DNA of 64,000 nt from NCBI RefSeq assembly GCF_001404515.1, contig NZ_CXWE01000003.1, positions 434,001-498,000 on the forward strand, read 5' to 3'. Positions 13,533 through 27,317 of the stretch are shown here, one piece after another; position 1 is the first letter of the stretch, and every line of letters begins with the position of its first letter. A program made the translations under genes and the position numbers. The stretch comes from Roseibium album (GTDB taxonomy: Bacteria; Pseudomonadota; Alphaproteobacteria; Rhizobiales; Stappiaceae). The notes under the pieces are model-generated. The model did not search any database. It saw only the letters and a list, made by a program, of their open reading frames with translations, and was not told where the DNA came from.

Positions 13533-14480
13533 TCAGACCACGGGTGCCCGGATTTCCGTGCCGGCAAAGTTATGCGATTGATCGGTTCCCATTCCCAGAT
13601 GCATGAAGTCGATAAAGGCCTTGGTTGCCTCGTTGTAACTGCGGCCGTTGCGCCAGACGAGGCCAACATCCATCGTCGGAATTTCATCCGATACCTCGAT
13701 CACTTCAACGCGCCGTCCTTCCAGGCTCCAGGGCCGGTGCACCATGTCCGACAGGATGGAGACACCCATCCCGTTGGCCACCATGCTGCGCACGGCTTCC
13801 ACCGAGGATGTCCGGAAAATTGTATTCGGCCTGTAAGGCGTGCGGTTCCAATAGCGCTGCGCCGTGTTGCTGGCCTCGTCAACTGTCAGCATGATGTAGG
13901 GTTCCTCGGCCACGTCCTGCAGTGAGACCGAGGGTTTCTGAAGATATTTGTGATGAGCGTCGACCCAAAGCCGCCGACGGGACCGCCAGAGAGTGTCGTG
14001 TGCCAACTCCTCGTGATTGACGATGTTCGATGTCAGCATGACCGACAGGTCGAAGCCGTTCGTAACAAGGCCTTCCTCGATTGTCGGGCGGTCGGCCTCT
14101 GACAGATTGATTTTCACGTTGGGAAAAGCACGTGAGAACCGCGCGAGAAACGGAGGGAAGAAATAGCCGGAAATCGTATAGCTGAGCGCCAGGTTGATCG
14201 ACCCTTTCACATCATCGCGGATGCGGCGCGGGATCCTGACGGCCTCTTCGACCGATTCAATGATATGGCGGGCATGTTCCAGAAAGAGATTGCCTTCATA
14301 AGTCAGTGACACGCCGCCCGCATGACGTTCAAACAACCTTGCCCCGATAAGGTCCTCAAGGGACTTGATAGCAGTCGTGATCGCCGACTGGGAGACATTC
14401 AGGTCCATTGCTGCCCTGGAAATCTGACCTGCATTGGCGGCGGCGAGGAAATAGCGAATTTGTCGAAGAGACGGTTCCAT
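13533..14480 (-). CDS. LysR-family transcription regulator
   Basis: 315 residues with an N-terminal LysR helix-turn-helix (LRQIRYFLAAANAGQISRAA, SQSAITTAIKSLEDLIGARLF, GVSLTYEGN) and a periplasmic-binding-like effector domain from about residue 92. It is divergent from the TorT-like/biotin-carboxylase operon that starts at 14822, the usual layout for a LysR activator and its target. It converges with the FadR gene on the other side, with an inverted repeat (13460-13468 / 13508-13516) between them. Confidence 0.92.
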   Translation of the reverse strand: MEPSLRQIRYFLAAANAGQISRAAMDLNVSQSAITTAIKSLEDLIGARLFERHAGGVSLTYEGNLFLEHARHIIESVEEAVRIPRRIRDDVKGSINLALSYTISGYFFPPFLARFSRAFPNVKINLSEADRPTIEEGLVTNGFDLSVMLTSNIVNHEELAHDTLWRSRRRLWVDAHHKYLQKPSVSLQDVAEEPYIMLTVDEASNTAQRYWNRTPYRPNTIFRTSSVEAVRSMVANGMGVSILSDMVHRPWSLEGRRVEVIEVSDEIPTMDVGLVWRNGRSYNEATKAFIDFMHLGMGTDQSHNFAGTEIRAPVV

Positions 14481-14821: not shown

Positions 14822-15895
14822 ATGAAAAGAACTCTGGTGGGCCTGTTGGCCTCGACGGCGATATCGTTCGCAGCCGTGACGGCCGCGTCGGCCGCAAACT
14901 GGTTCCCGGTTCCGGTTCAGGTCTGGGAACCGGCCTTCGACATGGACAGCCCAAGGCGGGACTTCACCTATGTGCCGCTCGACAAGGCCTCCAAACCCTG
15001 GGAAGTATGTGTCTCCTTTCCGCATATGAAAGACGCATACTGGCTGGGCGTGGATTATGGCGTGACGGAAGAAGCCAAACGGCTGGGCGTCAAGATGCAG
15101 GTCGTCGAGGCGGGTGGATATACCGAACTCAACAAGCAGATTTCCCAGATTGAGGATTGTGTCTCCGCCGGTGCCGATGCCGTGATCATCGGTGCGATTT
15201 CCGCAGACGGCCTCAACAACCTTATTCAGGAAATTCGCTCCAAGGACATCCCGGTCATTGACGTGATCAATGGAATTTCTTCCAAGGAAATCACCGCGAA
15301 ATCTCTTGTCTCTTTCGGTGAAATGGGCGCGAAAACAGGGGAATACCTTGCCAAGCTGCACCCGGCCGGCTCCGGCAAGGCAAAGGTTGCGTGGTTCCCT
15401 GGCCCCTCCGGAGCAGGATGGGTGGAAGCCGGCAATGCAGGTTTTGCAAAGGCCGTCGAAGGCAGCGACATCGAGCTCGTGGAAACCAAGTACGGTGACA
15501 CCGGCAAGGAAGTGCAGGCCAAGCTTGTTGAAGACACGCTCGAGGCACATCCCGATCTCGCCTACGTCGTCGGAACTGCTGTCACGGCCGAAGTCGCCGT
15601 GCCGATCCTGCGCTCGCGTGGCCTGACGGACCAGATCAAGGTCGCGTCCTACTACTTCACGCCCGGCGTCGCGCAAGGTTTGAAACGCGGCCAGATTCTC
15701 GCCGCACCGACCGACTCAACAGTCCTTCAGGGCCGCATCGCTGTCGATATTGCCGTGCGTGCGCTGGAAGGCGAACCCTATGAAAAGCATGTCGGCCCGG
15801 CCCTTTACGTGGTGCATCAGGGCAATCTGGGTGAGTTCGATGCGTCCTCCACCCTTGCGCCGGATGGCTTCAAACCGGTTTTCCGGGTCGATTGA
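14822..15895 (+). CDS. TorT-like periplasmic substrate-binding protein
   Basis: 357 residues with a Sec signal peptide (MKRTLVGLLASTAISFAAVT, cleavage near residue 24 at ASA-A). The mature part opens NWFPVPVQVWEPAFD and continues VCVSFPHMKDAYWLGVDYG, the pattern of TorT, the periplasmic trimethylamine-N-oxide sensor of the type I (RbsB-like) binding fold. No TorS/TorR-type kinase or regulator is near. Instead the next two genes are a ribose-type ATPase and permease, so here it should be the binding component of an importer. The ligand is unknown; the downstream carboxylase/oxoprolinase genes suggest a lactam, amide or ureido compound. Confidence 0.85.
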   Translation: MKRTLVGLLASTAISFAAVTAASAANWFPVPVQVWEPAFDMDSPRRDFTYVPLDKASKPWEVCVSFPHMKDAYWLGVDYGVTEEAKRLGVKMQVVEAGGYTELNKQISQIEDCVSAGADAVIIGAISADGLNNLIQEIRSKDIPVIDVINGISSKEITAKSLVSFGEMGAKTGEYLAKLHPAGSGKAKVAWFPGPSGAGWVEAGNAGFAKAVEGSDIELVETKYGDTGKEVQAKLVEDTLEAHPDLAYVVGTAVTAEVAVPILRSRGLTDQIKVASYYFTPGVAQGLKRGQILAAPTDSTVLQGRIAVDIAVRALEGEPYEKHVGPALYVVHQGNLGEFDASSTLAPDGFKPVFRVD

Positions 15896-15897
15896 CA

Positions 15898-17460
15898 ATG
15901 GTCTCTCAAGCCTCGGATGCAGTGGTCCAGGAGGTTGGGGAGGGTGCGCGCACCAGTGCGCACCCGCTCCTCAGGACCGAAAGCCTGACCAAGGACTATC
16001 CCGGTATCCGCGCCCTCAACGAAATGAATTTCGATCTGCGCAGTGGTGAGGTCCACATACTCTTCGGTGAAAACGGTGCCGGCAAGTCGACGTTGATCTC
16101 GATGCTGGCGGGTGCAAATCATCCCACCAGCGGCAAGATCCTGTTCGACGGCAAAGAGGTGCACCTCGGCAGCGTTCATGAAGCAAGGGAACTGGGCATC
16201 AGCGCGGTCTTTCAGGAATTCTCGCTCATACCGCAGATGACGGTTGCCGAGAACATGTTTCTGGGTGCCGAACCGACACAGGGCGGGTTTCTTCGGCCGC
16301 GGGAACAGAAGGCAAAAGCCGAGGAGATTCTAAAAAACCTCGACTTTCATTTGAAGCCTGGCCGCCGTGTCGATCACCTCACGCGTGCGGAACAGCAGAT
16401 GGTCGAGATTGCCAAGGCTTTCCGCACGGATCCGTCGGTTCTCATTCTCGACGAGCCGACCGCGTCGCTGACAAACCATGAGACCGAACAGTTATTCAAA
16501 CTGGTCGCCAAACTCAGGAAACGCGGTGTCGGCATCATCTACATTACCCACCGCATGGCGGAAATCCGCGAAATCGGAGACCGGATCACCATTTTGCGCG
16601 ATGGCAGGTTCATCGACACGGTCGATGCCGCCACGACCAGCGAAGATCGCCTTGTGGAACTGATGACCGGCCGCGTTGTCGGGCAGATATTTCCGAAAGT
16701 GAACTACAATCCGGGCGAAACGATACTGGAAGTCGATAACCTGCACACGCCTGGCTCCGGCGGGCTAAACGGCGCGTCAGCCTTTGTCCGCCGAGGTGAA
16801 ATCGTCGGATTTGCGGGGCTGGTTGGCTCCGGAAAATCAAAATTCGCCCAGGCCAGTTTCGGCTCTTACCCGATAGAAAGCGGCAGGATCCGTTTCAAGG
16901 GACAGGACGTCGGCAAGCCGAAAACCCGGGACATGCTCAAGCGCGGTTTCATGTATCTGCCATCGGACCGCCGGTCCGACGGGCTGATGATGATGCGGCC
17001 TGCGCGAGAGAACATCAGTCTCGCCTCGTTGACCAACGCACCGCTATCGGCAGGCTTGTTCCTGAACACCCGTGCTGAGAACCGTGTCGCATCCGAACTC
17101 GCCGACCGGCTGAACCTGTCTCCGCGCCGTATCGAGCGCCTCGCTGGACAGTTTTCCGGCGGCAACCAGCAGAAGTTGATGCTTGCACGCAGCCTTACCC
17201 GCGAGTTCGATCTGATTGTCTTCGATGAGCCGACCGTCGGCGTCGATGTCGGCACACGCGCGGCCATCTACCAGTTTATTGCCGAGCTCAGCGAGAACGG
17301 AGCGGCCATTTTGCTGATTTCATCCGACCTTCCCGAAATCCTTCACCTGACCAATCGGACTTACGTCTTCTATCGCGGCGAGATCCAGGCCGAACTCGCC
17401 GGTGACGACATCACGGAAGCCAATGTCCTGGCCCATTTCTTTGAACGAGAAGAGGTTTGA
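15898..17460 (+). CDS. Ribose-type ABC transporter ATPase (two tandem ABC domains)
   Basis: 520-residue duplicated ATPase of the RbsA/MglA class. The first domain (about 25-250) has Walker A GENGAGKST and Walker B LILDEPTASL; its signature is degenerate (LTRAEQQMVEIAKA). The second (about 270-515) has the altered Walker A GLVGSGKSK, as expected in this class, with FSGGNQQKLMLARSL and LIVFDEPTVGVD. ATG 15898 is preferred over the TTG at 15892, which overlaps the previous stop. It abuts the permease gene directly (stop 17460, start 17461). Confidence 0.93.
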   Translation: MVSQASDAVVQEVGEGARTSAHPLLRTESLTKDYPGIRALNEMNFDLRSGEVHILFGENGAGKSTLISMLAGANHPTSGKILFDGKEVHLGSVHEARELGISAVFQEFSLIPQMTVAENMFLGAEPTQGGFLRPREQKAKAEEILKNLDFHLKPGRRVDHLTRAEQQMVEIAKAFRTDPSVLILDEPTASLTNHETEQLFKLVAKLRKRGVGIIYITHRMAEIREIGDRITILRDGRFIDTVDAATTSEDRLVELMTGRVVGQIFPKVNYNPGETILEVDNLHTPGSGGLNGASAFVRRGEIVGFAGLVGSGKSKFAQASFGSYPIESGRIRFKGQDVGKPKTRDMLKRGFMYLPSDRRSDGLMMMRPARENISLASLTNAPLSAGLFLNTRAENRVASELADRLNLSPRRIERLAGQFSGGNQQKLMLARSLTREFDLIVFDEPTVGVDVGTRAAIYQFIAELSENGAAILLISSDLPEILHLTNRTYVFYRGEIQAELAGDDITEANVLAHFFEREEV

Positions 17461-18489
17461 ATGACCGTCTCATCCGAAAGCTCCGCAGCGGGTACAAGCA
17501 CACTGGCGGATCTGCCGAAGAAGGTGTTCGTCAGATTGGGGATCCTTCCGTTTCTGCTTGTGATTGCCGTTGTCGTGTTCACGATCCTGTCCGACAATTT
17601 CCTGACCGGTCGAAATCTGCTGAACGTCCTGAGGCAATCGGTCTTTCTGACCATCGTGTCGATGGGGCAGATGCTCGCTCTGCTGACCGGCGGTTTCGAT
17701 CTGTCTGTTGGAACCACACTTGCGTTGACCTCCGTCGTCGGTGCGATGGCGATGGCAGCCGCTTATGCCGCGATGCCTGACGCTGTCTGGCTGGCTATCT
17801 TTATCGGTTGCTTCGCCGGCATCGTCGCAGGAACCATGATCGGTTTGTGCAACGGTATTGGTGTCGCATTTTTCGGCGTCTCACCTTTCATGATGTCGCT
17901 CGGCATGACATCCGTCGGCTTCGGCATTGCCCTGTTTCTGACGGGCGGAACACCGGTCTACGGCATGCCGCAGGCTTTCGGGGATGTATTCGGTTTCGGA
18001 TCCTTCCTTGGAATCCACACTCCGATCTATGTCGCCGCCCTGCTTGCCGTCCTGCTGTTCGTCTATCTCTACCGCACCCCGTTCGGGCGATACATCTATG
18101 CCGTCGGCGGAAACGCCAAGGCGGCGGGACTTTCAGGCATCAACACCAGGGCAACACTGCTTTGGACATACATCATGTGCGCTGCCATGGCATCAGTCGC
18201 CGGCATGCTGCTGACGGCCCGGCTGGATACGGGAGAAGCCAATATCGGAGCGTCCATGCCGCTCGAATCGATTGCCGCCTGTGTGATCGCCGGCGTCAGT
18301 TTGCGCGGTGGTGTGGGTCGTCTGGAAAACGTCATTCTGGGAGCTCTCTTCATCGGACTGGTCCAGAACGGCATGAACCTTGCGCGCATTGAATCCTACC
18401 TGCAGACGGTGGTCCTCGGTGGATTGCTGATCCTTGCAGTCATCGCCGACCAGATCCGCTTGCGCTACGTCGCATCCCTCAAAGACTAA
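17461..18489 (+). CDS. Ribose-type ABC transporter permease
   Basis: 342-residue BPD_transp_2 permease with about eight to ten membrane helices from residue 28 on. It has the family motif GGFDLSVGTTLALTSVVGAMA and the later AVGGNAKAAGLSGINTR and GVSLRGGVGRLENVILGAL. It starts one base after the ATPase stop. With the TorT-like protein and the duplicated ATPase it completes an importer. Eleven bases separate it from pxpA, so transport and catabolism are co-transcribed. Confidence 0.93.
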   Translation: MTVSSESSAAGTSTLADLPKKVFVRLGILPFLLVIAVVVFTILSDNFLTGRNLLNVLRQSVFLTIVSMGQMLALLTGGFDLSVGTTLALTSVVGAMAMAAAYAAMPDAVWLAIFIGCFAGIVAGTMIGLCNGIGVAFFGVSPFMMSLGMTSVGFGIALFLTGGTPVYGMPQAFGDVFGFGSFLGIHTPIYVAALLAVLLFVYLYRTPFGRYIYAVGGNAKAAGLSGINTRATLLWTYIMCAAMASVAGMLLTARLDTGEANIGASMPLESIAACVIAGVSLRGGVGRLENVILGALFIGLVQNGMNLARIESYLQTVVLGGLLILAVIADQIRLRYVASLKD

Positions 18490-18499
18490 GAGCCAGAAC

Positions 18500-19231
18500 A
18501 TGCAGACAAATATAAATTGCGACATGGGAGAGAGCTTCGGCATCTACAAGATGGGCAACGATGAAGCCATCATGCCCTACATCACCGAAGCAAATATCGC
18601 CTGCGGATTCCACGGCTCGGACCCGAACCACATCCGCAGAACCGTCGAACTCTGCGCCCGTCACGGCGTCAAGGTCGGGGCACATTTTTCCTTGCCGGAC
18701 CTGCCTGGTTTCGGCCGGCGCGAGATGAAGATCGATCGCGAGGAGATGGCAAACATCATTCTCTACCAGATCGGCGCGCTGAAAGGTTTTCTGGACGCGG
18801 CGGGAATTCAGCTCTGCCACATGAAGCCGCACGGTGCGCTTTACGGAATGGCGGCCCGGGAAGAACACATCGCCCATGCAATCTGCGATGCCTGTCACGC
18901 CTACGCGGTCCCTGTCTTCGGCTTGAGCGGTACGCTTCACGAGGAGATATACACTGCACGAGGTCTGGAGTTTGTCGCCGAATTCTTTGCCGATCTTGAC
19001 TACGATCAAAACGGCAAGCTGCTGATCACACGGGAACATCCCGTGCTCGATCCCCAGTCGGTCGGCCAGAAGGCACTGCGCGCTGTCACCGAAGGCAAGG
19101 TCACGAGTGTTACCGGAGAGGATGTACCGGTTACCGCGAAAACAATCTGCATTCATTCCGACACACCCAACGTGGTGGATATCGCAAAGGCCGTCCGATC
19201 GGCGCTTGAAGACTACATCGAGGCCGCTTGA
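18500..19231 (+). CDS. pxpA: 5-oxoprolinase subunit A-like (LamB/YcsF family)
   Basis: 243 residues, LamB/YcsF family. The N-terminal NINCDMGESFGIYKMGNDEAIMPY and the HMKPHGALYG motif are the family hallmarks and carry the active-site Asp and His residues. In E. coli PxpA works with PxpB and PxpC to open 5-oxoproline to glutamate with ATP. Start ATG 18500 is chosen over an in-frame ATG at 18434 inside the permease gene. Here it is followed by a biotin carrier and a biotin carboxylase, so the energy input may come through carboxylation rather than direct phosphorylation (inference). Confidence 0.9.
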   Translation: MQTNINCDMGESFGIYKMGNDEAIMPYITEANIACGFHGSDPNHIRRTVELCARHGVKVGAHFSLPDLPGFGRREMKIDREEMANIILYQIGALKGFLDAAGIQLCHMKPHGALYGMAAREEHIAHAICDACHAYAVPVFGLSGTLHEEIYTARGLEFVAEFFADLDYDQNGKLLITREHPVLDPQSVGQKALRAVTEGKVTSVTGEDVPVTAKTICIHSDTPNVVDIAKAVRSALEDYIEAA

Positions 19232-19272
19232 TCAGTCGGCTGACCGAACAAGGCAAGAGGGGAATCTCAATC

Positions 19273-19515
19273 ATGGCAATCCACGAAGTCAGGGCAATGC
19301 TGCCGGGTGTGTTCTACCGCAAACCCGCACCTTCCGATCCCAACTACAAGGAAGAGGGCGACGCGGTTTCCAAGGGAGACGTCATTGGCCTGATCGAGGT
19401 GATGAAATCATTCCACGAAGTCATTTCCGATGCGGACGGCACCATCCGGGCGTTCAAGGTGGAAAATGAAGACGCCATCATGCCCGGTCAGGTTCTCGCG
19501 GAAATCGAAGGGTGA
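19273..19515 (+). CDS. Biotin carboxyl carrier protein (small, stand-alone)
   Basis: 80-residue biotinyl domain. The biotinylation site reads GLIEVMKSFHEV with Lys45 as the acceptor, in place of the usual EAMKM. ATG 19273 is preceded by AGGGGA about nine bases away; an upstream TTG at 19228 overlaps pxpA. It lacks the Ala/Pro-rich linker and thumb of acetyl-CoA carboxylase AccB, so it is more likely the carrier of a dedicated enzyme than of fatty-acid synthesis. It ends in GTGA overlapping a possible start of the biotin carboxylase gene. Confidence 0.9.
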   Translation: MAIHEVRAMLPGVFYRKPAPSDPNYKEEGDAVSKGDVIGLIEVMKSFHEVISDADGTIRAFKVENEDAIMPGQVLAEIEG

Positions 19516-19526
19516 TCGGAGCTTCC

Positions 19527-20897
19527 ATGTCCCTGTCCAAGATACTCATTGCAAATCGCGGTGAAATCGCAGTGCGGATCATTCGCGCAGCGAAGGAACT
19601 CGGGCTGAAAACAGTCCAGGTTTACAGCTCTGCCGATGAAACGTCGCTTGCGGTGCAAATGGCCGATGAGGCCGTCGAAATCGGCCCACCGGCAGCAAAA
19701 AAGTCCTACCTCGATATTGATGCGGTTTTGAAGGCCGCCAGGGAAACGGGTGCAGATGCCATTCACCCGGGCTACGGATTTCTGGCCGAAAACGCGGAAT
19801 TCGCAGATGCGGTCGCTGCGGCGGGTATAACATTTGTCGGCCCGTCCGGTGATGTCATCCGTCGCATGGGAGACAAGGCCTCCGCCCGCCAGGCAGCAAC
19901 GGAGGCCGGCGTCCCGACCGTCCCCGGCAGCCAGGGTGTGATAGACGATCTGAACGAGGCCTGCAGACTTGCGGAAAACATCGGCTTTCCCGTGATGATC
20001 AAGGCGACGGCCGGTGGCGGTGGCCGGGGTATCCGGATCGCGAACAGTGCCGGGGAATTCATGGCGCTGGCACCGCAGGCGTCTTCCGAAGCAGAGGCGG
20101 CATTCGGTGACGGCGGGCTTTACCTTGAAAAGGTGATCGAACGCGCAAGACACATCGAGGTCCAGATTCTCGGTGACGGAGAAAACTTCATTCATTGCTA
20201 CGAACGTGAGTGTTCCCTGCAGCGGCGACGCCAGAAGGTCTGGGAAGAAGCTCCGTCGGCCGCACTCTCGTCCGACGTCCGCGAGAGGCTGTGTGCATCC
20301 GCCGTCGCCCTCGCGGCGGCTGTCAGGTACAAGGGTGCCGGCACGATCGAATACCTCTACGACGATGCCAGCGGCGACTACTACTTCATCGAAATGAACA
20401 CCAGGATCCAGGTCGAACACCCGGTCACGGAGAGCATTACCGGCATCGACCTGCTGGCAGAAATGATCGCCGTGGCCGGAGGCCAGCCCCTGTCGGTCCG
20501 GCAGGAAGACGTCACCTATCGTGGCCATGCGATCGAAGTGCGCATCAATGCGGAGGATCCTGCCGCGAATTTCATGCCCTTCCCGGGAGTTGTCGGTGAT
20601 CTGCGCATCCCCGGCGGACCCGGGGTGCGCTTCGATCACATGCTTTATCAGGGCTATCAGATCCCGCCTTTCTATGACTCGTTGCTGGGCAAGCTGATCG
20701 TCAGCGCCGACTCTCGCGAGAAAGCCATCATCCGCCTGAAACGGGCAATCTGCGAGCTCGGACTGGACGGCCTCAAGACCACGGCGCCGCTCTTCAAGGC
20801 GCTCGCGGAGGCGCCGGATGTTCTGTCCGGCGACGTTCATACGAAATGGCTGGAGCCCTGGCTCGAGGCAAATTCAGACAAACTCTCAAGCCAGTAG
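19527..20897 (+). CDS. Biotin carboxylase subunit (AccC-like)
   Basis: 456 residues with the full biotin carboxylase layout: SKILIANRGEIAVRIIRAAK at the N terminus, HPGYGFLAENAEFA, ATP-grasp glycine loop KATAGGGGRGIRI, EKVIERARHIEVQILGDG, ECSLQRRRQKV, and the catalytic EMNTRIQVEHPVTE. It uses ATP and bicarbonate to carboxylate biotin on the carrier encoded just upstream. ATG 19527 is preferred; GTG 19512, which overlaps the previous stop, is the alternative. The genes on either side (BCCP, pxpB, pxpC) suggest a urea-carboxylase-type complex rather than acetyl-CoA carboxylase. Confidence 0.93.
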   Translation: MSLSKILIANRGEIAVRIIRAAKELGLKTVQVYSSADETSLAVQMADEAVEIGPPAAKKSYLDIDAVLKAARETGADAIHPGYGFLAENAEFADAVAAAGITFVGPSGDVIRRMGDKASARQAATEAGVPTVPGSQGVIDDLNEACRLAENIGFPVMIKATAGGGGRGIRIANSAGEFMALAPQASSEAEAAFGDGGLYLEKVIERARHIEVQILGDGENFIHCYERECSLQRRRQKVWEEAPSAALSSDVRERLCASAVALAAAVRYKGAGTIEYLYDDASGDYYFIEMNTRIQVEHPVTESITGIDLLAEMIAVAGGQPLSVRQEDVTYRGHAIEVRINAEDPAANFMPFPGVVGDLRIPGGPGVRFDHMLYQGYQIPPFYDSLLGKLIVSADSREKAIIRLKRAICELGLDGLKTTAPLFKALAEAPDVLSGDVHTKWLEPWLEANSDKLSSQ

Positions 20898-20907
20898 GGA
20901 GATCCAG

Positions 20908-21783
20908 ATGAGCTCGAGATACACATTCGGAGGCGACGAGCATATCTTCGTGGAAGTCAACGAGGAAATGTCCCTGGAGGCATTCTTCAAGGCTCTCTCG
21001 ATGACCAATGCCGTCAGGAACGCCGATATCAGGGGCGTGACCGAGATCTGCCCCGCCAATGCATCGTTTCAGATCAAGTTCGACCCGGATCTGATCCATC
21101 CGGATGACCTCATGTCCGAGTTGAAGCGAATGGAAGAAATCGCTGACAAGGAAGAAGCGGTTCTCAACACGCGCATCATCGAAATTCCGGTCTATTACCA
21201 GGACCCGTGGACACATGAGACGCTGATGAGGTTTCGCGAAAGGCATCAGGACCCGGAGGCGACGGATATCGAATATGCCGCGCGGATCAACGGGTACGAC
21301 ACTGTTGCGGATTTCATCCAGGCCCATTCCGCCTCGCCATGGTTTGTCTCCATGGTCGGCTTCGTCTCCGGCTTGCCGTTCCTCTATCAGATGGTCGATC
21401 GGAAGCGGCAGATCCAGGTGCCGAAATATTTGCGCCCAAGAACCGACACGCCCAGGCTGACGGTGGGGTACGGCGGCTGTTTTTCCTGCATTTACTCAGT
21501 CCGCGGCGCCGGCGGCTACCAGATGTTCGGCATCACGCCCATGCCGATTTACGACCCGGAACAAAAGGTCAATTACCTGAAGGACTTCCTCGTCTTCTTC
21601 AAACCCGGCGACATCGTGAAATGGAAACCGATCACCCGGGAAGAATACGAAAGGAACCTGAAGGAGGTCGAGGCGAACACGTTCAGTCCACGTATTCGCG
21701 AAGTCGTCTTTTCACTGGACGATTTCAACCGGGACATCGATGGCACCAACGCCAAGCTTCTGGAGGTTCTCAATGCCGGTTAA
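20908..21783 (+). CDS. pxpB: 5-oxoprolinase subunit B-like (AHS1/KipI family)
   Basis: 291 residues. The N-terminal part (1-95) is the KipI small domain (FGGDEHIFVEVNEEMSLEAF); the C-terminal part holds the AHS1/cyclophilin-like fold with IPVYYQDPWTHE, GFVSGLPFLYQM, PRTDTPRLTVGYGGCFSCIY and GAGGYQMFGITPMPIYDPEQ. AHS1 is homologous to half of the carboxyltransferase region of urea amidolyase. GGGAG lies seven bases before ATG 20908, ten bases after the biotin carboxylase stop. The gene overlaps pxpC by eleven bases. Confidence 0.9.
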   Translation: MSSRYTFGGDEHIFVEVNEEMSLEAFFKALSMTNAVRNADIRGVTEICPANASFQIKFDPDLIHPDDLMSELKRMEEIADKEEAVLNTRIIEIPVYYQDPWTHETLMRFRERHQDPEATDIEYAARINGYDTVADFIQAHSASPWFVSMVGFVSGLPFLYQMVDRKRQIQVPKYLRPRTDTPRLTVGYGGCFSCIYSVRGAGGYQMFGITPMPIYDPEQKVNYLKDFLVFFKPGDIVKWKPITREEYERNLKEVEANTFSPRIREVVFSLDDFNRDIDGTNAKLLEVLNAG

Positions 21784-22747
21784 TGTAAAATCTGCTGGAC
21801 TTGCAACAACGGTCCAGGACCTCGGCCGTCCGGGCTACTACCACCTCGGCATTCCGATCGGCGGTGCCATGGACAGGCTTGCCCTGCGGGCCGCAAACAT
21901 GCTCGTTGGCAATGACGAGGGAGCTGCATGCCTCGAGGCCGTGTTCATGGGTCCCGAGCTCGAGTTCACCGAGGACACGCTGATCGCCATTACCGGCGCC
22001 GAACTTCCACCGAAGATTGACGGCGAGGTTCGGGACACCTGGACGACGCTCAAGGTCAAAAAGGGACAGGTCCTGTCCTTTGACTATCTGCGCGCCGGAG
22101 CCAGGGCCTACATTGCTGTTGCCGGCGGCATAGACACGCCCGCCAATCTCGGCAGCCGGTCGACCTATGCAATCGGTGCGCTCGGCGGCGTGAACGGCAG
22201 GGCCATTCAACCGGGCGATGTACTGCCCGTCGGAAATGCCTCCGTGACAGTCTCGGAAGGAACGACAATTCCGGCAAACCTGCGGCGCGGCCCGGACAAA
22301 CCGGCGGAGCTGCGGGTCTTGCCCGGGCTCTATGCTCACCGCGTCAGCGAACGGTCGCTCGACCGGTTTTTCCAGGATACCTGGAAGGTCGCCTCCGAGG
22401 CCGATCGCATGGGTTACCGCTTCCAGGGCGGCGCTCCGATCGAATTTGTCGACAGGGAACCGCCCTTCGGTGCGGGATCCGATCCCTCCAACATCACCGA
22501 TGCCTGCTATCCCTACGGTTCCATACAGATACCAAGCGGCACCGAGCCGATCATCCTGCACCGCGACGCGGTTTCCGGTGGCGGGTACTTCATGGTTGGC
22601 ACCGTGATTTCAGCCGATATGGACCTGATCGGACAACTTCAACCCCATACGGAAACCCGGTTCGTGAAAGTGAACATGCACACGGCACTGTCAGCACGCC
22701 GCGAACGGGCCGCAGCGATTGAAAACATGCGTCAGGCCCTTGCCTGA
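21773..22747 (+). CDS. pxpC: 5-oxoprolinase subunit C-like (AHS2/KipA family)
   Basis: 324 residues, AHS2 family: VKSAGLATTVQDLGRPGYYH at the start, then GIPIGGAMDRLALRAANMLVGN, AYIAVAGGID, LGSRSTYAIGALGG, and DRMGYRFQGG late in the protein. With PxpB it forms the complex that in E. coli activates 5-oxoproline, and it matches the second half of the urea carboxylase carboxyltransferase. ATG 21773 lies inside the last codons of pxpB, so the two are probably made in equal amounts. Confidence 0.92.
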   Translation: MPVNVKSAGLATTVQDLGRPGYYHLGIPIGGAMDRLALRAANMLVGNDEGAACLEAVFMGPELEFTEDTLIAITGAELPPKIDGEVRDTWTTLKVKKGQVLSFDYLRAGARAYIAVAGGIDTPANLGSRSTYAIGALGGVNGRAIQPGDVLPVGNASVTVSEGTTIPANLRRGPDKPAELRVLPGLYAHRVSERSLDRFFQDTWKVASEADRMGYRFQGGAPIEFVDREPPFGAGSDPSNITDACYPYGSIQIPSGTEPIILHRDAVSGGGYFMVGTVISADMDLIGQLQPHTETRFVKVNMHTALSARRERAAAIENMRQALA

Positions 22748-22772
22748 GCAGAACCGAAACAAGGAATTCGCA

Positions 22773-23366
22773 ATGATCAGCACGCAGAAACATGCCACGC
22801 TTGCCGACATGCTCTGGCAAAGCAACCATCCAGGGCTGCGCACTCTGGCGCTTGCGGTCCTGGGAAGTATGGCGCTCTGGGTTTCGGCTAAGATCCAGGT
22901 GCCGTTTTATCCCGTTCCCATAACCATGCAGACCTTCGTCGTTCTGGCGATCGGCATGGGCTTCGGCGCGCGGCTCGGCGCTGCGACCGTCGGTCTTTAT
23001 CTCTTGCAGGGCCTTGCCGGATTGCCGGTCTTTGCCGGCACCCCGGAAAAGGGAATCGGGCTGGCCTACATGATTGGCCCGACCGGCGGTTATCTGCTCG
23101 GCTTCGTGCTGGCCGCAGCTGTCGTCGGCTATCTCGCCGAACGGGGTTTCGACCGCAATGTCTTCACGACCGCAATCGCCATGATCGTCGGCAACGTCGT
23201 GATCTACGTGCCTGGCCTGCTGTGGCTCGGTACGGTCGTCGGCTGGGACAAGCCGGTGCTGGATTGGGGCATGACCCCTTTCCTGTTCGGCGACGCCGCC
23301 AAGATGCTGCTGGCCGCTGCACTCTTGCCCATGATCTGGAAGATAATCGGTTCCCGGCAGTCCTGA
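22773..23366 (+). CDS. bioY: Biotin transporter BioY
   Basis: 197-residue membrane protein with about six helices. The BioY pattern is clear: AKIQVPFYPVPITMQTFVVLAIGMGFGARLGAATVGLYLLQGLAGLPVFAG and GPTGGYLLGFVLAAAVVGYLAERG. It is the substrate-specific component for biotin uptake, able to act alone or with energy-coupling ATPases. Its place as the last gene of an operon with a biotin carrier and a biotin carboxylase links biotin supply to that enzyme. AAGGAA precedes ATG 22773. A terminator follows. Confidence 0.94.
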   Translation: MISTQKHATLADMLWQSNHPGLRTLALAVLGSMALWVSAKIQVPFYPVPITMQTFVVLAIGMGFGARLGAATVGLYLLQGLAGLPVFAGTPEKGIGLAYMIGPTGGYLLGFVLAAAVVGYLAERGFDRNVFTTAIAMIVGNVVIYVPGLLWLGTVVGWDKPVLDWGMTPFLFGDAAKMLLAAALLPMIWKIIGSRQS

Positions 23367-23504: not shown

Positions 23505-24458
23505 TCAAACACGCTCATACGTGCCAAGCATATGCTTCAACCAGGTTTGAAACCGTTGAATTCGTTCATCATTGGCAACTGCGGGCCGCATCAGGAGAAA
23601 GTAGCCGCCAACCTTGATATCGGTTTGGAAGAGCTCGACCAACCGGCCTTTTGCGATTTCCTCTGATGCCAGAAGATTGCTCGTAAGAGCAACGCCCTGA
23701 CCCGCGAGCGCCGCGTCAAATCCGAGGCTCGCGTCCCATAACCTTGATCCGCTCAGAGCATGATTGAAATCCACCCCGGCGTGCCGGAACCAGCTTGTCC
23801 ATTGTTCGTAGGAATCCTCGTGAATCAGCGGCAGGCGTGTCAGGTCTGTCAACGAACCCAGTTGACCGTTCTTCTTTAGCCAAATTGGACTTGCGACTGG
23901 AAACATGCGCGGCTGAATCAATGGAGTCGCGCCTTCGGGCAGTCGATTGGCATCTGAAAACCCGATCATCAGGTCGGCTTCTCCGCCGGCAAAGTCGGGG
24001 ATTTGGTCAATCGCACGCAGCAGAACATCACCGTGCAGGATTGCTTGACGGATCCGATCCAGCTTGGGTGTGAGGCAGCGGGTTGCCAGACCCGGAACGC
24101 ACCAGATGACCAGTTCGTCCGCACCCGCTTTCGAACGCAGCTGGGCCGACACACGGGCGATATCTTGAAAGGCGTCTGTCGCCGCCGCAAAAAGCGTGGA
24201 GCCCTCGGTGGTCAACGTAATTCCACGTGGCCCTGCAGAGACCAGCTTCCGGCCAAACCATGCCTCCAGGTTCTGAATATGCCGGCTGACAACTGTGTGG
24301 CTTATGCCGATATCTTCCGCCGCCTTGCGCATGCTGCCGGTGCGGCCGGCTGCTTCGAAGGCACGCAACATGTGAAGCGGCGGCAACCGGCCTGCAAGTG
24401 GCCGTGCCGGATCGAAATGCCGACCGCCGGCAATTCCTGAATGACTTGGTTTTGGCAT
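23505..24458 (-). CDS. LysR-family regulator (GcvA-like)
   Basis: 317 residues. The helix-turn-helix is LHMLRAFEAAGRTGSMRKAAEDIGISHTVVSRHIQNLEAWFGRKL followed by GITLTTEGS, the GcvA/AmpR branch of LysR proteins. An effector-binding domain follows from about residue 115. It is divergent from gabT-gabD with a near-symmetric site between them (24476-24494), so control of GABA or related amine use is likely. The N-terminal 25 residues before the helix-turn-helix are unusually long and the true start could be internal. Confidence 0.9.
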   Translation of the reverse strand: MPKPSHSGIAGGRHFDPARPLAGRLPPLHMLRAFEAAGRTGSMRKAAEDIGISHTVVSRHIQNLEAWFGRKLVSAGPRGITLTTEGSTLFAAATDAFQDIARVSAQLRSKAGADELVIWCVPGLATRCLTPKLDRIRQAILHGDVLLRAIDQIPDFAGGEADLMIGFSDANRLPEGATPLIQPRMFPVASPIWLKKNGQLGSLTDLTRLPLIHEDSYEQWTSWFRHAGVDFNHALSGSRLWDASLGFDAALAGQGVALTSNLLASEEIAKGRLVELFQTDIKVGGYFLLMRPAVANDERIQRFQTWLKHMLGTYERV

Positions 24459-24577: not shown

Positions 24578-25867
24578 GTGAACAATGAAATCTTGCAACA
24601 CCGCAGACGCGCTGCTGTTCCGCGCGGGATCGCCACGGCCTATCCGACATTCGTCAGTCGGGCGGAAAACGCTGAAATCTGGGATGTGGAAGGGAATCGG
24701 CTCATTGACTTTGCCGGAGGCATTGCCGTTCTGAACACGGGTCACCGTCACCCGCGGATCATGGAAGCAGTCAGGCAGCAACTCGACAGTTACACCCATA
24801 CGGCATTCCAGATCTTGCCCTATGCGCCTTATGTCGAAGTCTGTGAACGCCTGGTACAGCTTGCTCCGATCAAAAACGCGAAGGCGGTCCTGTTTTCAAC
24901 CGGTGCGGAAGCCGTCGAAAATGCGGTCAAGATTGCACGAGCGGCCACGGGACGGCCCGGTGTCATCGCCTTTTCGGGAGGATTTCACGGCCGCACTGCC
25001 ATGACCACGGCCCTTACCGGCAAAGTCTCTCCCTACAAGACCGGGTTCGGAATCTCTCCGCCCGGGATCTATCACGTTCCATTCCCGGTTCCCCAACACG
25101 GGACCAGCACCGAAGACTCGCTGAAGGCTCTGGACACACTCTTTCGAACAGATATCGGACCTGACAACACCGCTGCGATCATCATTGAACCGGTTCAGGG
25201 GGAAGGCGGTTTCCATCCTGCGCCTGTTGATCTGCTCACCAAGCTGCGCGGGATCTGCAGCCGGGCCGGTATCGTCCTGATCGCCGACGAAATACAGACC
25301 GGTTTTGCGCGAACCGGCAAGATGTTCGGCGTCGAGCATAGCGGCATTTCACCCGACATCATGACGGTTGCCAAATCCATGGCAGGCGGCTTCCCGCTCT
25401 CCGGGGTTATCGGGCGTGCCGATATCATGGAGGCAGCTGAACCGGGCGGTCTGGGCGGGACCTATGCCGGAAACCCGGTCTCCTGCGCAGCGGCGCTGGC
25501 GGTCATAGATGTCATTGCAGAAGAAAAACTGGTCGAACGGGCCAATACCGTGGGTACGCGCATCAAGACCCGGCTTCAGGAGATTGCGAAACGCAACGAC
25601 AGCGTCCCTATCGCAGCACTCCGCGGCCCGGGAGCAATGGTCGCATTCGATATTGTCCGCAAGGAAGATGGGCAGGAACCCGATGCCGTCGCGGCAAAAC
25701 GCGTCACGCAGGCAGCACTCGATGCCGGTCTGGTACTTCTGTCCTGCGGTGTTTTCGGCAATACCATTCGCATCCTCAATCCGCTGACAATAACCGACGA
25801 CATTCTCGATGAAGGTCTCGACATTTTGGAAGGGGCGCTGAAAACAGCCCTCGAGACGGAGGATTGA
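24578..25867 (+). CDS. gabT: 4-aminobutyrate aminotransferase-type class III transaminase
   Basis: 429-residue PLP enzyme of the class III aminotransferase family. Landmarks: FAGGIAVLNTGHRHP, LFSTGAEAVENAVKIAR, FSGGFHGRT, IIEPVQGEGGF, LIADEIQTGFARTGKMF, and the PLP lysine K266 in MTVAKSMAGGFPLSG. It starts at GTG 24578, with AAAGGG seven bases upstream. It moves the amino group of GABA to 2-oxoglutarate, giving succinate semialdehyde for the next enzyme, four bases downstream. Related omega-amino acids are possible substrates. Confidence 0.92.
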   Translation: MNNEILQHRRRAAVPRGIATAYPTFVSRAENAEIWDVEGNRLIDFAGGIAVLNTGHRHPRIMEAVRQQLDSYTHTAFQILPYAPYVEVCERLVQLAPIKNAKAVLFSTGAEAVENAVKIARAATGRPGVIAFSGGFHGRTAMTTALTGKVSPYKTGFGISPPGIYHVPFPVPQHGTSTEDSLKALDTLFRTDIGPDNTAAIIIEPVQGEGGFHPAPVDLLTKLRGICSRAGIVLIADEIQTGFARTGKMFGVEHSGISPDIMTVAKSMAGGFPLSGVIGRADIMEAAEPGGLGGTYAGNPVSCAAALAVIDVIAEEKLVERANTVGTRIKTRLQEIAKRNDSVPIAALRGPGAMVAFDIVRKEDGQEPDAVAAKRVTQAALDAGLVLLSCGVFGNTIRILNPLTITDDILDEGLDILEGALKTALETED

Positions 25868-25871
25868 ACCC

Positions 25872-27317
25872 TTGTTGAACTTGAATGACTCAGGTCTTCT
25901 CAAACAACAGGCCTACATGAATGGTCAGTTTACCGGTCATCCCTGTCTACCCGTGATCAACCCGGCAAATGGCCAACGGATTGCTGCAGTACCGGATTTC
26001 GGTGCCAGAGAAACGGAAACAGCGGTTGAAGCCGCTGGGGCGGCTTTTCGGCCCTGGGCATCAAGAACGGCAAAGGATCGCGGCAGCGTGCTCAGGCACT
26101 GGTTCGAACTTATCATGGCCAATCGGGAAGACCTGGCAACCATCCTGACGGCGGAACAGGGCAAGCCCTATGCGGAAGCGCTCGGCGAGATCGACTATGC
26201 GGCATCCTATGTCGAGTATTATGCCGAGGAAGCCAAGCGTATTTCAGGTGAAATCCTGCCCGCACACCGGGCAGACGCCAGGATCACGGTCTTTCGCCAG
26301 CCAATCGGAGTTGTTGCCGCCATCACGCCCTGGAATTTCCCTGCGGCAATGATCACCCGCAAGATTGCACCCGCTCTTGCAGCGGGTTGCACCGTTGTCG
26401 TCAAACCGGCTCCCGAGACCCCGTTGACCGCCCTTGCGCTTGTCGAACTGGCACACCGGGCCGGCTTCCCCGTGGGCGGCATCAACGTTCTGACCGGCAA
26501 TGCGGTGGAAATCGGCAGGGTTTTGACAAGTCATCCGAAGGTCCGGCTTGTCGGCTTTACCGGGTCGACAGCTGTCGGCAAGCTCCTCATGGCACAGTCC
26601 GCCACCACCGTGAAGAAGGTCGCATTGGAACTTGGTGGCAACGCCCCGTTCATCGTCTTTGACGATGCCGATCTCGACGCCGCGGTCGAAGGTGCGATGG
26701 CATCGAAGTTTCGCAACATGGGCCAGACCTGCGTCTGCACCAACCGGATCTACGCCCAGGCCGGAATACACGACCGGTTTGTCGATCGCCTTGCCCGTGA
26801 AGTTGCCCGTTTGAGTGTCGGAGACGGTTTCGAGAAAGACGTCACACAGGGGCCACTCATCACCGAAAACGCCGTGTTGAAGGTGGAAGATCATATAGCC
26901 GATGCCCTTGCAAAGGGCGCAAGGGTCGTTGTTGGCGGCCAGCGGCACAGTCTCGGTCGGACCTTTTTCCAGCCCACTCTCATGACAGGTGCAACAGGTG
27001 ATATGACACTTGCCCGCGAAGAGACCTTCGGCCCGGTCGCAGCCGTCTTCAGGTTTGGTACGGAAGACGAAGTGATTGCCGCAGCCAACGAAACGGAAAC
27101 CGGCCTGGCAGCCTATGTCTATACACGCGATCTCGGCCGCGTTTTCCGGGTCATGGAACAGCTGGAATATGGCATGGTAGGTGTCAACACAGGTATCATC
27201 TCAACTGAGCTGGCGCCCTTTGGCGGCGTAAAGCAAAGCGGCAATTCGCGCGAAGGCTCCCGACATGGCATCGATGAATTCACCGAACTGAAATACGGTT
27301 GCATCGCGGGTTTGTGA
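25872..27317 (+). CDS. gabD: Succinate-semialdehyde dehydrogenase
   Basis: 481-residue NAD(P)-dependent aldehyde dehydrogenase. The catalytic pair is E253 (ALELGGNAPFIVFDDADLD) and C287 (NMGQTCVCTNRIY); the second cysteine at 289 is characteristic of the GabD group. PWNFPAAMITRKIAPALAAG and GFTGSTAVGKLL mark the cofactor site. Translation starts at TTG 25872, with GGAGGA eight bases upstream. It oxidises succinate semialdehyde from GabT to succinate for the TCA cycle. Confidence 0.93.
   Translation: MLNLNDSGLLKQQAYMNGQFTGHPCLPVINPANGQRIAAVPDFGARETETAVEAAGAAFRPWASRTAKDRGSVLRHWFELIMANREDLATILTAEQGKPYAEALGEIDYAASYVEYYAEEAKRISGEILPAHRADARITVFRQPIGVVAAITPWNFPAAMITRKIAPALAAGCTVVVKPAPETPLTALALVELAHRAGFPVGGINVLTGNAVEIGRVLTSHPKVRLVGFTGSTAVGKLLMAQSATTVKKVALELGGNAPFIVFDDADLDAAVEGAMASKFRNMGQTCVCTNRIYAQAGIHDRFVDRLAREVARLSVGDGFEKDVTQGPLITENAVLKVEDHIADALAKGARVVVGGQRHSLGRTFFQPTLMTGATGDMTLAREETFGPVAAVFRFGTEDEVIAAANETETGLAAYVYTRDLGRVFRVMEQLEYGMVGVNTGIISTELAPFGGVKQSGNSREGSRHGIDEFTELKYGCIAGL

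Follow-up and report, generated by a model that had tools for sequence, protein, structure and literature searches.

What reaction is carried out by a gene set in which proteins resembling a 5-oxoprolinase stand beside a biotin carboxylase and a biotin carrier? This question is raised by a locus of Roseibium album (NCBI RefSeq assembly GCF_001404515.1, contig NZ_CXWE01000003.1), where the 64,000-nucleotide stretch at positions 434,001 to 498,000, hereafter the window, contains at 18500-23366 six genes for a PxpA-like protein, a biotin carboxyl carrier protein (BCCP), a biotin carboxylase (BC), the two carboxyltransferase proteins AHS1 and AHS2, and BioY. All six, which a preliminary description of the sequence had named, are intact and lie on one strand in tight order. 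The set of genes assigned there to an operon stands; its extent does not, since the operon starts upstream with the genes for a substrate-binding protein (SBP; 14822), an ATPase (15892), and a permease (17461). The nine-gene operon comprises these three importer genes (14822-18489) and the six genes above, with 10 bases between the permease gene and the PxpA-like gene and an 11-base overlap of the AHS1 and AHS2 reading frames.

That this module encodes some form of biotin-dependent enzyme for amides or lactams appears probable from the sequences. The best explanation for the operon as a whole, with an even chance of being right, would be a lactam carboxylase/hydrolase that depends on biotin, is driven by ATP, and is served by a dedicated importer, acting most likely on 2-pyrrolidinone.

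Carboxyltransferase signature and recurrence of the module

Family models place AHS1 and AHS2 below the cut-offs for PxpB (TIGR00370; 68.8 bits; cut-off, 145.55) and PxpC (NF045499; 216.3 bits; cut-off, 500), respectively. Scored as separate chains against the urea carboxylase model TIGR02712, AHS1, AHS2, and BC obtain 118.5, 244.9, and 521.8 bits, none reaching the cut-off of 1303.85. On these scores, the name PxpB given to AHS1 in the preliminary description is a misnomer. The public annotation of AHS2 already reads "biotin-dependent carboxyltransferase family protein", so that biotin dependence has been published in the form of a label. In alignment, K173 of AHS1 corresponds to K1605 of the yeast urea amidolyase (numbered by counting along the alignment), a residue described as the likely general base, whose alanine mutant is severely impaired (PMC5770610). 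Position 173 is lysine in 113/113 window-type rows, which are related by descent and count eight strains twice, in 5/5 urea carboxylases, in the intermediate locus L151, and in three further relatives, two of them archaeal and one actinobacterial, whereas it is arginine in all 39 distinct PxpB rows (29 plus 10 more, with the repeats L009, L011, and L014 left out). Position 204 splits likewise, with tyrosine in the K-type and tryptophan in the R-type proteins. Four sequences outside the main AHS1 profile set and tree (L052, L152, L155, and L156) are all R/W and have no BC in their loci. In AHS2, the loop at 229-236 and D244 are common to 5/5 urea carboxylases, whereas in PxpC the loop is gapped in 27 or 28 of 29 rows and position 244 is serine in 29/29.

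A maximum-likelihood tree built from 64 AHS1 rows, among them 26 of the 113 window-type rows, recovered the same division. These 26 form a single clade (100/96), and a branch supported at 100/99 separates the window type, the five urea carboxylases, L151, and the archaeal and actinobacterial kin from all 29 PxpB; the finer branching order is unsure because of long branches and unsettled bootstrap values. The view that the module would be a biotin-dependent carboxylase/hydrolase distinct from PxpABC of E. coli, already put forward in the preliminary description, thus gains support from K173, the AHS2 loop with its aspartate, and the tree. L151 (1718-11760; G335:C33) represents an intermediate fourth type, with genes for AHS1 (K/Y), AHS2, BCCP, and BC in that order. 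Upstream, at a distance of about 6 kb, stands a PxpA with G/L/T at the three positions discussed below, and downstream stands a binding protein of the Peripla_BP_4 family; L151 joins urea carboxylase in the AHS1 tree (98/68). Collectively, these sequence patterns suggest that the K/Y versus R/W signature could split genes now called "PxpB" or "allophanate hydrolase subunit 1" into a biotin type and a non-biotin type, and five genomes of the window's own family hold both together (G001, G008, G009, G049, and G063).

The module recurs widely. A scan with the AHS1 alignment over 84,980 species, each represented by a single genome, gave at least 575 confirmed relatives, the best 80 of which were taken as a sample of loci. 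BC and AHS2 adjoin AHS1 in 80/80, and chance clustering was rejected on the constant presence of BC there. PxpA and BCCP adjoin it in 74/80, the remaining six contigs ending just upstream, within BC; the five-gene core (PxpA, BCCP, BC, AHS1, and AHS2) is thus kept in 74/74 uncut neighborhoods. Other neighbors are less constant: a TorT-type SBP stands beside the module in 38/80 loci and BioY in 22/80, while gabT and gabD are near it in 10/80 and 8/80, respectively. Unbiased clustering of flanking open reading frames was dominated by antisense frames in GC-rich DNA. The closest relative among the matches listed is a Roseibium strain locus (L067) with a 94% identical AHS1, and a haloarchaeal plasmid (L192) has the same five genes in a different order. 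The module on this plasmid, from Haladaptatus, has an amidase and an aminotransferase of class III (34% to GabT) beside it (L192:1670-4556). For a wider set, 20 of the 27 PF02682 places in the family genomes were taken, together with 40 further loci hand-picked among the matches listed. PF02682 is found in 21/87 genomes of the window's family and the window-type module with its five-gene core in 15/87, the window's genome included, so that the module is accessory. Across 112 window-type loci, the full set of BC, BCCP, and PxpA is incomplete in eight, seven of which are cut off inside BC or beside it; L161 is the one true exception.

Hydrolase, GABA genes, and the candidate substrate

The PxpA-like protein exceeds two PxpA subfamily models (NF003814, 281.8 bits; cut-off, 226; NF003816, 230 bits; cut-off, 213) and falls below three PxpA equivalog models. 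Its AlphaFold model (predicted local distance difference test score, 89) matches the LamB structures 2dfa, 1v6t, 2xu2, and 1xw8, and many residues common to the LamB family are kept. Alignment in this analysis, rather than the literature, yielded a signature of three positions, N116/R166/R177, at which the window protein has G/L/T where 5-oxoprolinase PxpA has N/R/R. The N/R/R triad occurs in 25/26 canonical PxpA rows (the remaining row has H/R/R) and in 0/106 window-type rows, which have G/L/T (59 rows), M/R/x with R166 retained (46 rows), or F/L at positions 116/166 (one row). A substrate devoid of the 5-oxoproline carboxylate would be consistent with this loss of conserved arginines.

The genes beyond the operon also bear on the substrate. 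Downstream of BioY, after an opposite-strand LysR gene, lie gabT and gabD (24578-27317), encoding gamma-aminobutyrate (GABA) transaminase and succinate-semialdehyde dehydrogenase. This gabT is the sole match over the TIGR00700 cut-off in its genome, and gabD is the better of two over that of TIGR01780. GABA transaminase over its cut-off was found in 15/87 family genomes (18 genes), namely in 10/15 with the module versus 5/72 without it (Fisher p = 1.7e-6, uncorrected for descent), and in those ten genomes 7 of 11 gabT genes are no more than 8 kb away from AHS1 (G000, G048, G063, G008, G009, G047, and G012). The gene recurs in both PxpA clades and in several arrangements: 70 bases after the permease gene (L034), after BioY (L081), before the LysR gene (L035, L113, and L117), or beyond the permease gene (L048, L125, and L146). 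It also tracks the TorT importer, being near 9/38 modules with it versus 1/42 without (p = 0.005). No gabT, TorT-type SBP, or BioY was found, at the same thresholds and within stretches of 10-20 kb, beside 29 PxpB or 5 urea carboxylase loci.

2-Pyrrolidinone is 5-oxoproline minus its carboxylate, and its hydrolysis gives GABA. This single substrate would explain PxpA, GabT, and GabD together, since it lacks the carboxylate and yields GABA. In the scheme that we propose, the TorT-type ATP-binding cassette (ABC) importer would bring in a neutral cyclic amide, BC would carboxylate biotin on the 80-residue carrier using ATP and bicarbonate, and AHS1-AHS2 would move the carboxyl group onto the ring amide by means of K173. 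The PxpA-like protein would then hydrolyze the activated ring, and the resulting carbamate would lose CO2 to leave an omega-amino acid. In the window operon, this product would most likely be GABA, which GabT and GabD would take to succinate, making 2-pyrrolidinone the best candidate. The substrates listed in the preliminary description are thereby narrowed to a GABA-yielding lactam, with 5-oxoproline and urea argued against. That the substrate is 2-pyrrolidinone (gamma-butyrolactam) itself is a tentative assignment, slightly more apt to fail than to hold. We would advance with similar reserve, a little short of an even chance, the broader proposal of a widespread class of biotin-dependent lactamases, in which a dissociated urea-carboxylase-type machine carboxylates 2-pyrrolidinone and a LamB-type hydrolase opens the ring to GABA.

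Several observations weigh against a 2-pyrrolidinone carboxylase/hydrolase. The PxpA triad is a signature of the alignment that may or may not line the active site, and the module BC barely exceeds the accC model TIGR00514 (627.0 bits; cut-off, 626.5). L161 (G323:C6:76000-93000) has a K-type PxpA-AHS1-AHS2 set, but neither BC nor BCCP was found in its 17 kb. BC also lies nearby in 4 of the 33 R-type loci checked (L051, L171, L176, and L184), a count that leaves out six short R-type loci (L007, L008, L010, L012, L013, and L015); three of the four also have BCCP and all keep the canonical PxpA triad, so that a neighboring BC alone proves nothing about biotin dependence. With regard to the substrate, gabT is near only 10 of the 80 modules, and by position gabT-gabD is not in the operon transcript because the LysR gene intervenes. 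GabT is able to act on other omega-amino acids. Neighbors in other loci include hydantoinases, an allantoin permease, a molybdenum hydroxylase, and another ABC system with short-chain dehydrogenases/reductases, and the module family therefore need not share one substrate. Among the matches listed in an incomplete search of the open literature by title and abstract start, no substrate assignment, assay, or phenotype for the module was found.

These neighbors bear on the alternative of a biotin-dependent enzyme for another cyclic amide (hydantoin, a dihydropyrimidine, an allantoin-like compound, valerolactam, or a hydroxylated lactam), with a gabT/gabD link that is regional or concerns another omega-amino acid. 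We regard this as rather unlikely, yet as deserving real weight: hydantoinase A/B genes adjoin the module in L149 and L153, an allantoin permease gene in L148, and, on a Sulfitobacter plasmid, an annotated xanthine-dehydrogenase-type molybdenum hydroxylase trio directly follows the TorT-type importer (L147:15638-19267), gabT is rare beside the module, and the clades differ at PxpA positions 116/166. Against it stands the association of gabT with the TorT importer, in several arrangements and in both PxpA clades. An ordinary ATP-dependent 5-oxoprolinase (PxpABC), with BC and BCCP incidental or regulatory, is improbable. It would agree with the PxpA subfamily scores, with an AHS2 over the general model TIGR00724, and with the R-type pxp loci that have BC nearby; it is at odds with the PxpB and PxpC scores, the K/Y residues of AHS1, the lost PxpA triad, and the five family genomes that carry both types. 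Moreover, a fused hydantoinase/oxoprolinase-type protein of the same genome could serve 5-oxoproline. This candidate for a separate 5-oxoprolinase, a 1195-residue hydantoinase A/B-type fusion on contig C5 (L205:934-4518), is related over its length to the solved 1288-residue "N-methylhydantoinase" 7hk5.

A split urea or guanidine carboxylase is highly improbable: AHS1 and AHS2 do match TIGR02712 and share its active-site lysine, but a LamB-type protein belongs to the core, and the urea route was rejected because no allophanate hydrolase in the genome exceeds its cut-off (best, 258 bits; cut-off, 511). Hardly credible is a role of BC and BCCP in acetyl-CoA carboxylase, for which family models name them and whose accC model BC just exceeds. 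BCCP is below the AccB model (52.7 bits; cut-off, 115.2), contig C11 (L004) carries another accB-accC pair that passes both models, and BC and BCCP accompany AHS1 and AHS2 in relatives, including the archaeal plasmid with its other gene order. The preliminary description had named a carrier serving acetyl-CoA carboxylase as a refutation of its proposal; such a carrier is unlikely given the BCCP score and the resident accB-accC pair, and this pair was the ground on which that candidate was rejected.

Operon features and biotin supply

The features are collected in the table below. The TorT-like SBP remains below the TorT model TIGR02955 (303.6 bits; cut-off, 310), and its solved relative is 4yhs (482 bits).

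Features of the operon and its flanks in window coordinates; gene starts are chosen internal methionines where the listed open reading frame runs longer
Feature	Coordinates	Strand	Support
LysR_up, divergent LysR-type regulator, probable operon regulator	13533..14480	-	Relative of at least 40% identity adjoins the module in 64/80 loci
TorT-like (CUT2 family) periplasmic SBP	14822..15895	+	NF008185, 422.6 bits (cut-off, 200)
ABC transporter ATPase, sugar/CUT2 type	15892..17460	+	PF00005, two domains
ABC transporter permease	17461..18489	+	PF02653
PxpA/LamB-YcsF-like ring-opening hydrolase (predicted)	18500..19231	+	PF03746, 304 bits
BCCP, 80 residues	19273..19515	+	NF005457, 115 bits (cut-off, 87)
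BC	19527..20897	+	NF009471, 742 bits (cut-off, 686)
AHS1, carboxyltransferase subdomains C/D, K173 and Y204	20908..21783	+	PF02682
AHS2, carboxyltransferase subdomains A/B, R229-G236 loop and D244	21773..22747	+	PF02626; TIGR00724 over cut-off
BioY biotin importer	22773..23366	+	PF02632, 136 bits
LysR-type regulator separating BioY from gabT	23505..24458	-	
gabT, GABA transaminase	24578..25867	+	TIGR00700, 577.9 bits (cut-off, 506.65)
gabD, succinate-semialdehyde dehydrogenase	25872..27317	+	TIGR01780, 695.3 bits (cut-off, 646.35)

The carrier has the length of 80 residues previously reported and exceeds its model; its presumed biotin site is K45 in the motif EVMKS, and the E-x-M-K motif is present in 102/102 BCCPs found in related loci. 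BC contains the ATP-grasp motifs and is identical at 237/447 residues to the AccC of the same genome, which remains below the NF009471 model that the module BC exceeds (629.7 bits). No bioB over the cut-off was found in this genome (best, 38 bits; cut-off, 225) and two BioY are present, one of them in the operon, so that biotin is probably imported. The dedicated biotin importer proposed in the preliminary description fits this situation, and in other loci, too, genes for biotin supply stand next to the module. In Acidiphilium (L064), bioB is annotated after AHS2. In Hoeflea poritis (L083:11837-18255), gabT follows AHS2 by about 11 bases and is itself followed by bioB, a bioF-like gene, bioD, bioA, and a KAS III gene, all over their cut-offs except the bioF-like gene.

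Relation to known systems

The module resembles urea carboxylase (TIGR02712; yeast urea amidolyase, 5i8i and 3va7) in its combination of BC, BCCP, and an AHS2-AHS1 carboxyltransferase, and in the general-base lysine, Tyr 204, the AHS2 loop, and Asp 244. It differs in that it consists of five separate subunits, has a LamB-type protein in its core, and adjoins an importer and gabT/gabD; moreover, its AHS1 obtains only 118 bits against the AHS1 part of the model. With the PxpABC 5-oxoprolinase (E. coli b0713, b0711, and b0712) it shares a LamB/YcsF protein, AHS1, and AHS2 in one operon and many conserved PxpA residues, whereas the core BC and BCCP, the K/Y residues of AHS1, the extra AHS2 loop, and the replaced PxpA triad set it apart. 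Genes PA0492-PA0496 of Pseudomonas aeruginosa, whose annotations include an enzyme requiring biotin and a subunit of a carboxylase, are presumably the same module. The function of PA0493 and PA0494 has been called unknown (PMC6249292). PxpBC is assumed to phosphorylate 5-oxoproline (PMC13274462), a different activation chemistry.

The ATP-dependent opening of a lactam is also known from the hydantoinase-type lactam hydrolases OplAB and CapAB, which belong to other protein families and for which the portions of text available report no biotin cofactor. Caprolactamase needs bicarbonate, and carboxyl activation of the lactam was considered as mechanism C (PMC8453981); for OplAB, carboxyphosphate has been proposed to play a role (PMC11033972). 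On gamma-butyrolactam, the monomer of nylon-4, OplAB has hardly any activity, with about 4% conversion and no better mild enzymatic cleavage described in the parts of that paper at hand (PMC11033972). If its substrate is as proposed, the operon would supply this missing gamma-butyrolactam enzyme, and biotin enzymes would gain a new substrate class and a new reaction type.

In 2011, Lombard and Moreira (PMC3199775) described the two halves of UCT as encoded by adjacent genes, with no functional data in the sections available, and that paper left open whether stand-alone UCT-like genes act with biotin carboxylases or have another role. The word LamB is absent from its text, and the sections available do not separate biotin-type from non-biotin-type genes among the UCT homologues. 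The K/Y versus R/W signature suggests that both of these answers hold and sorts genomes between them.

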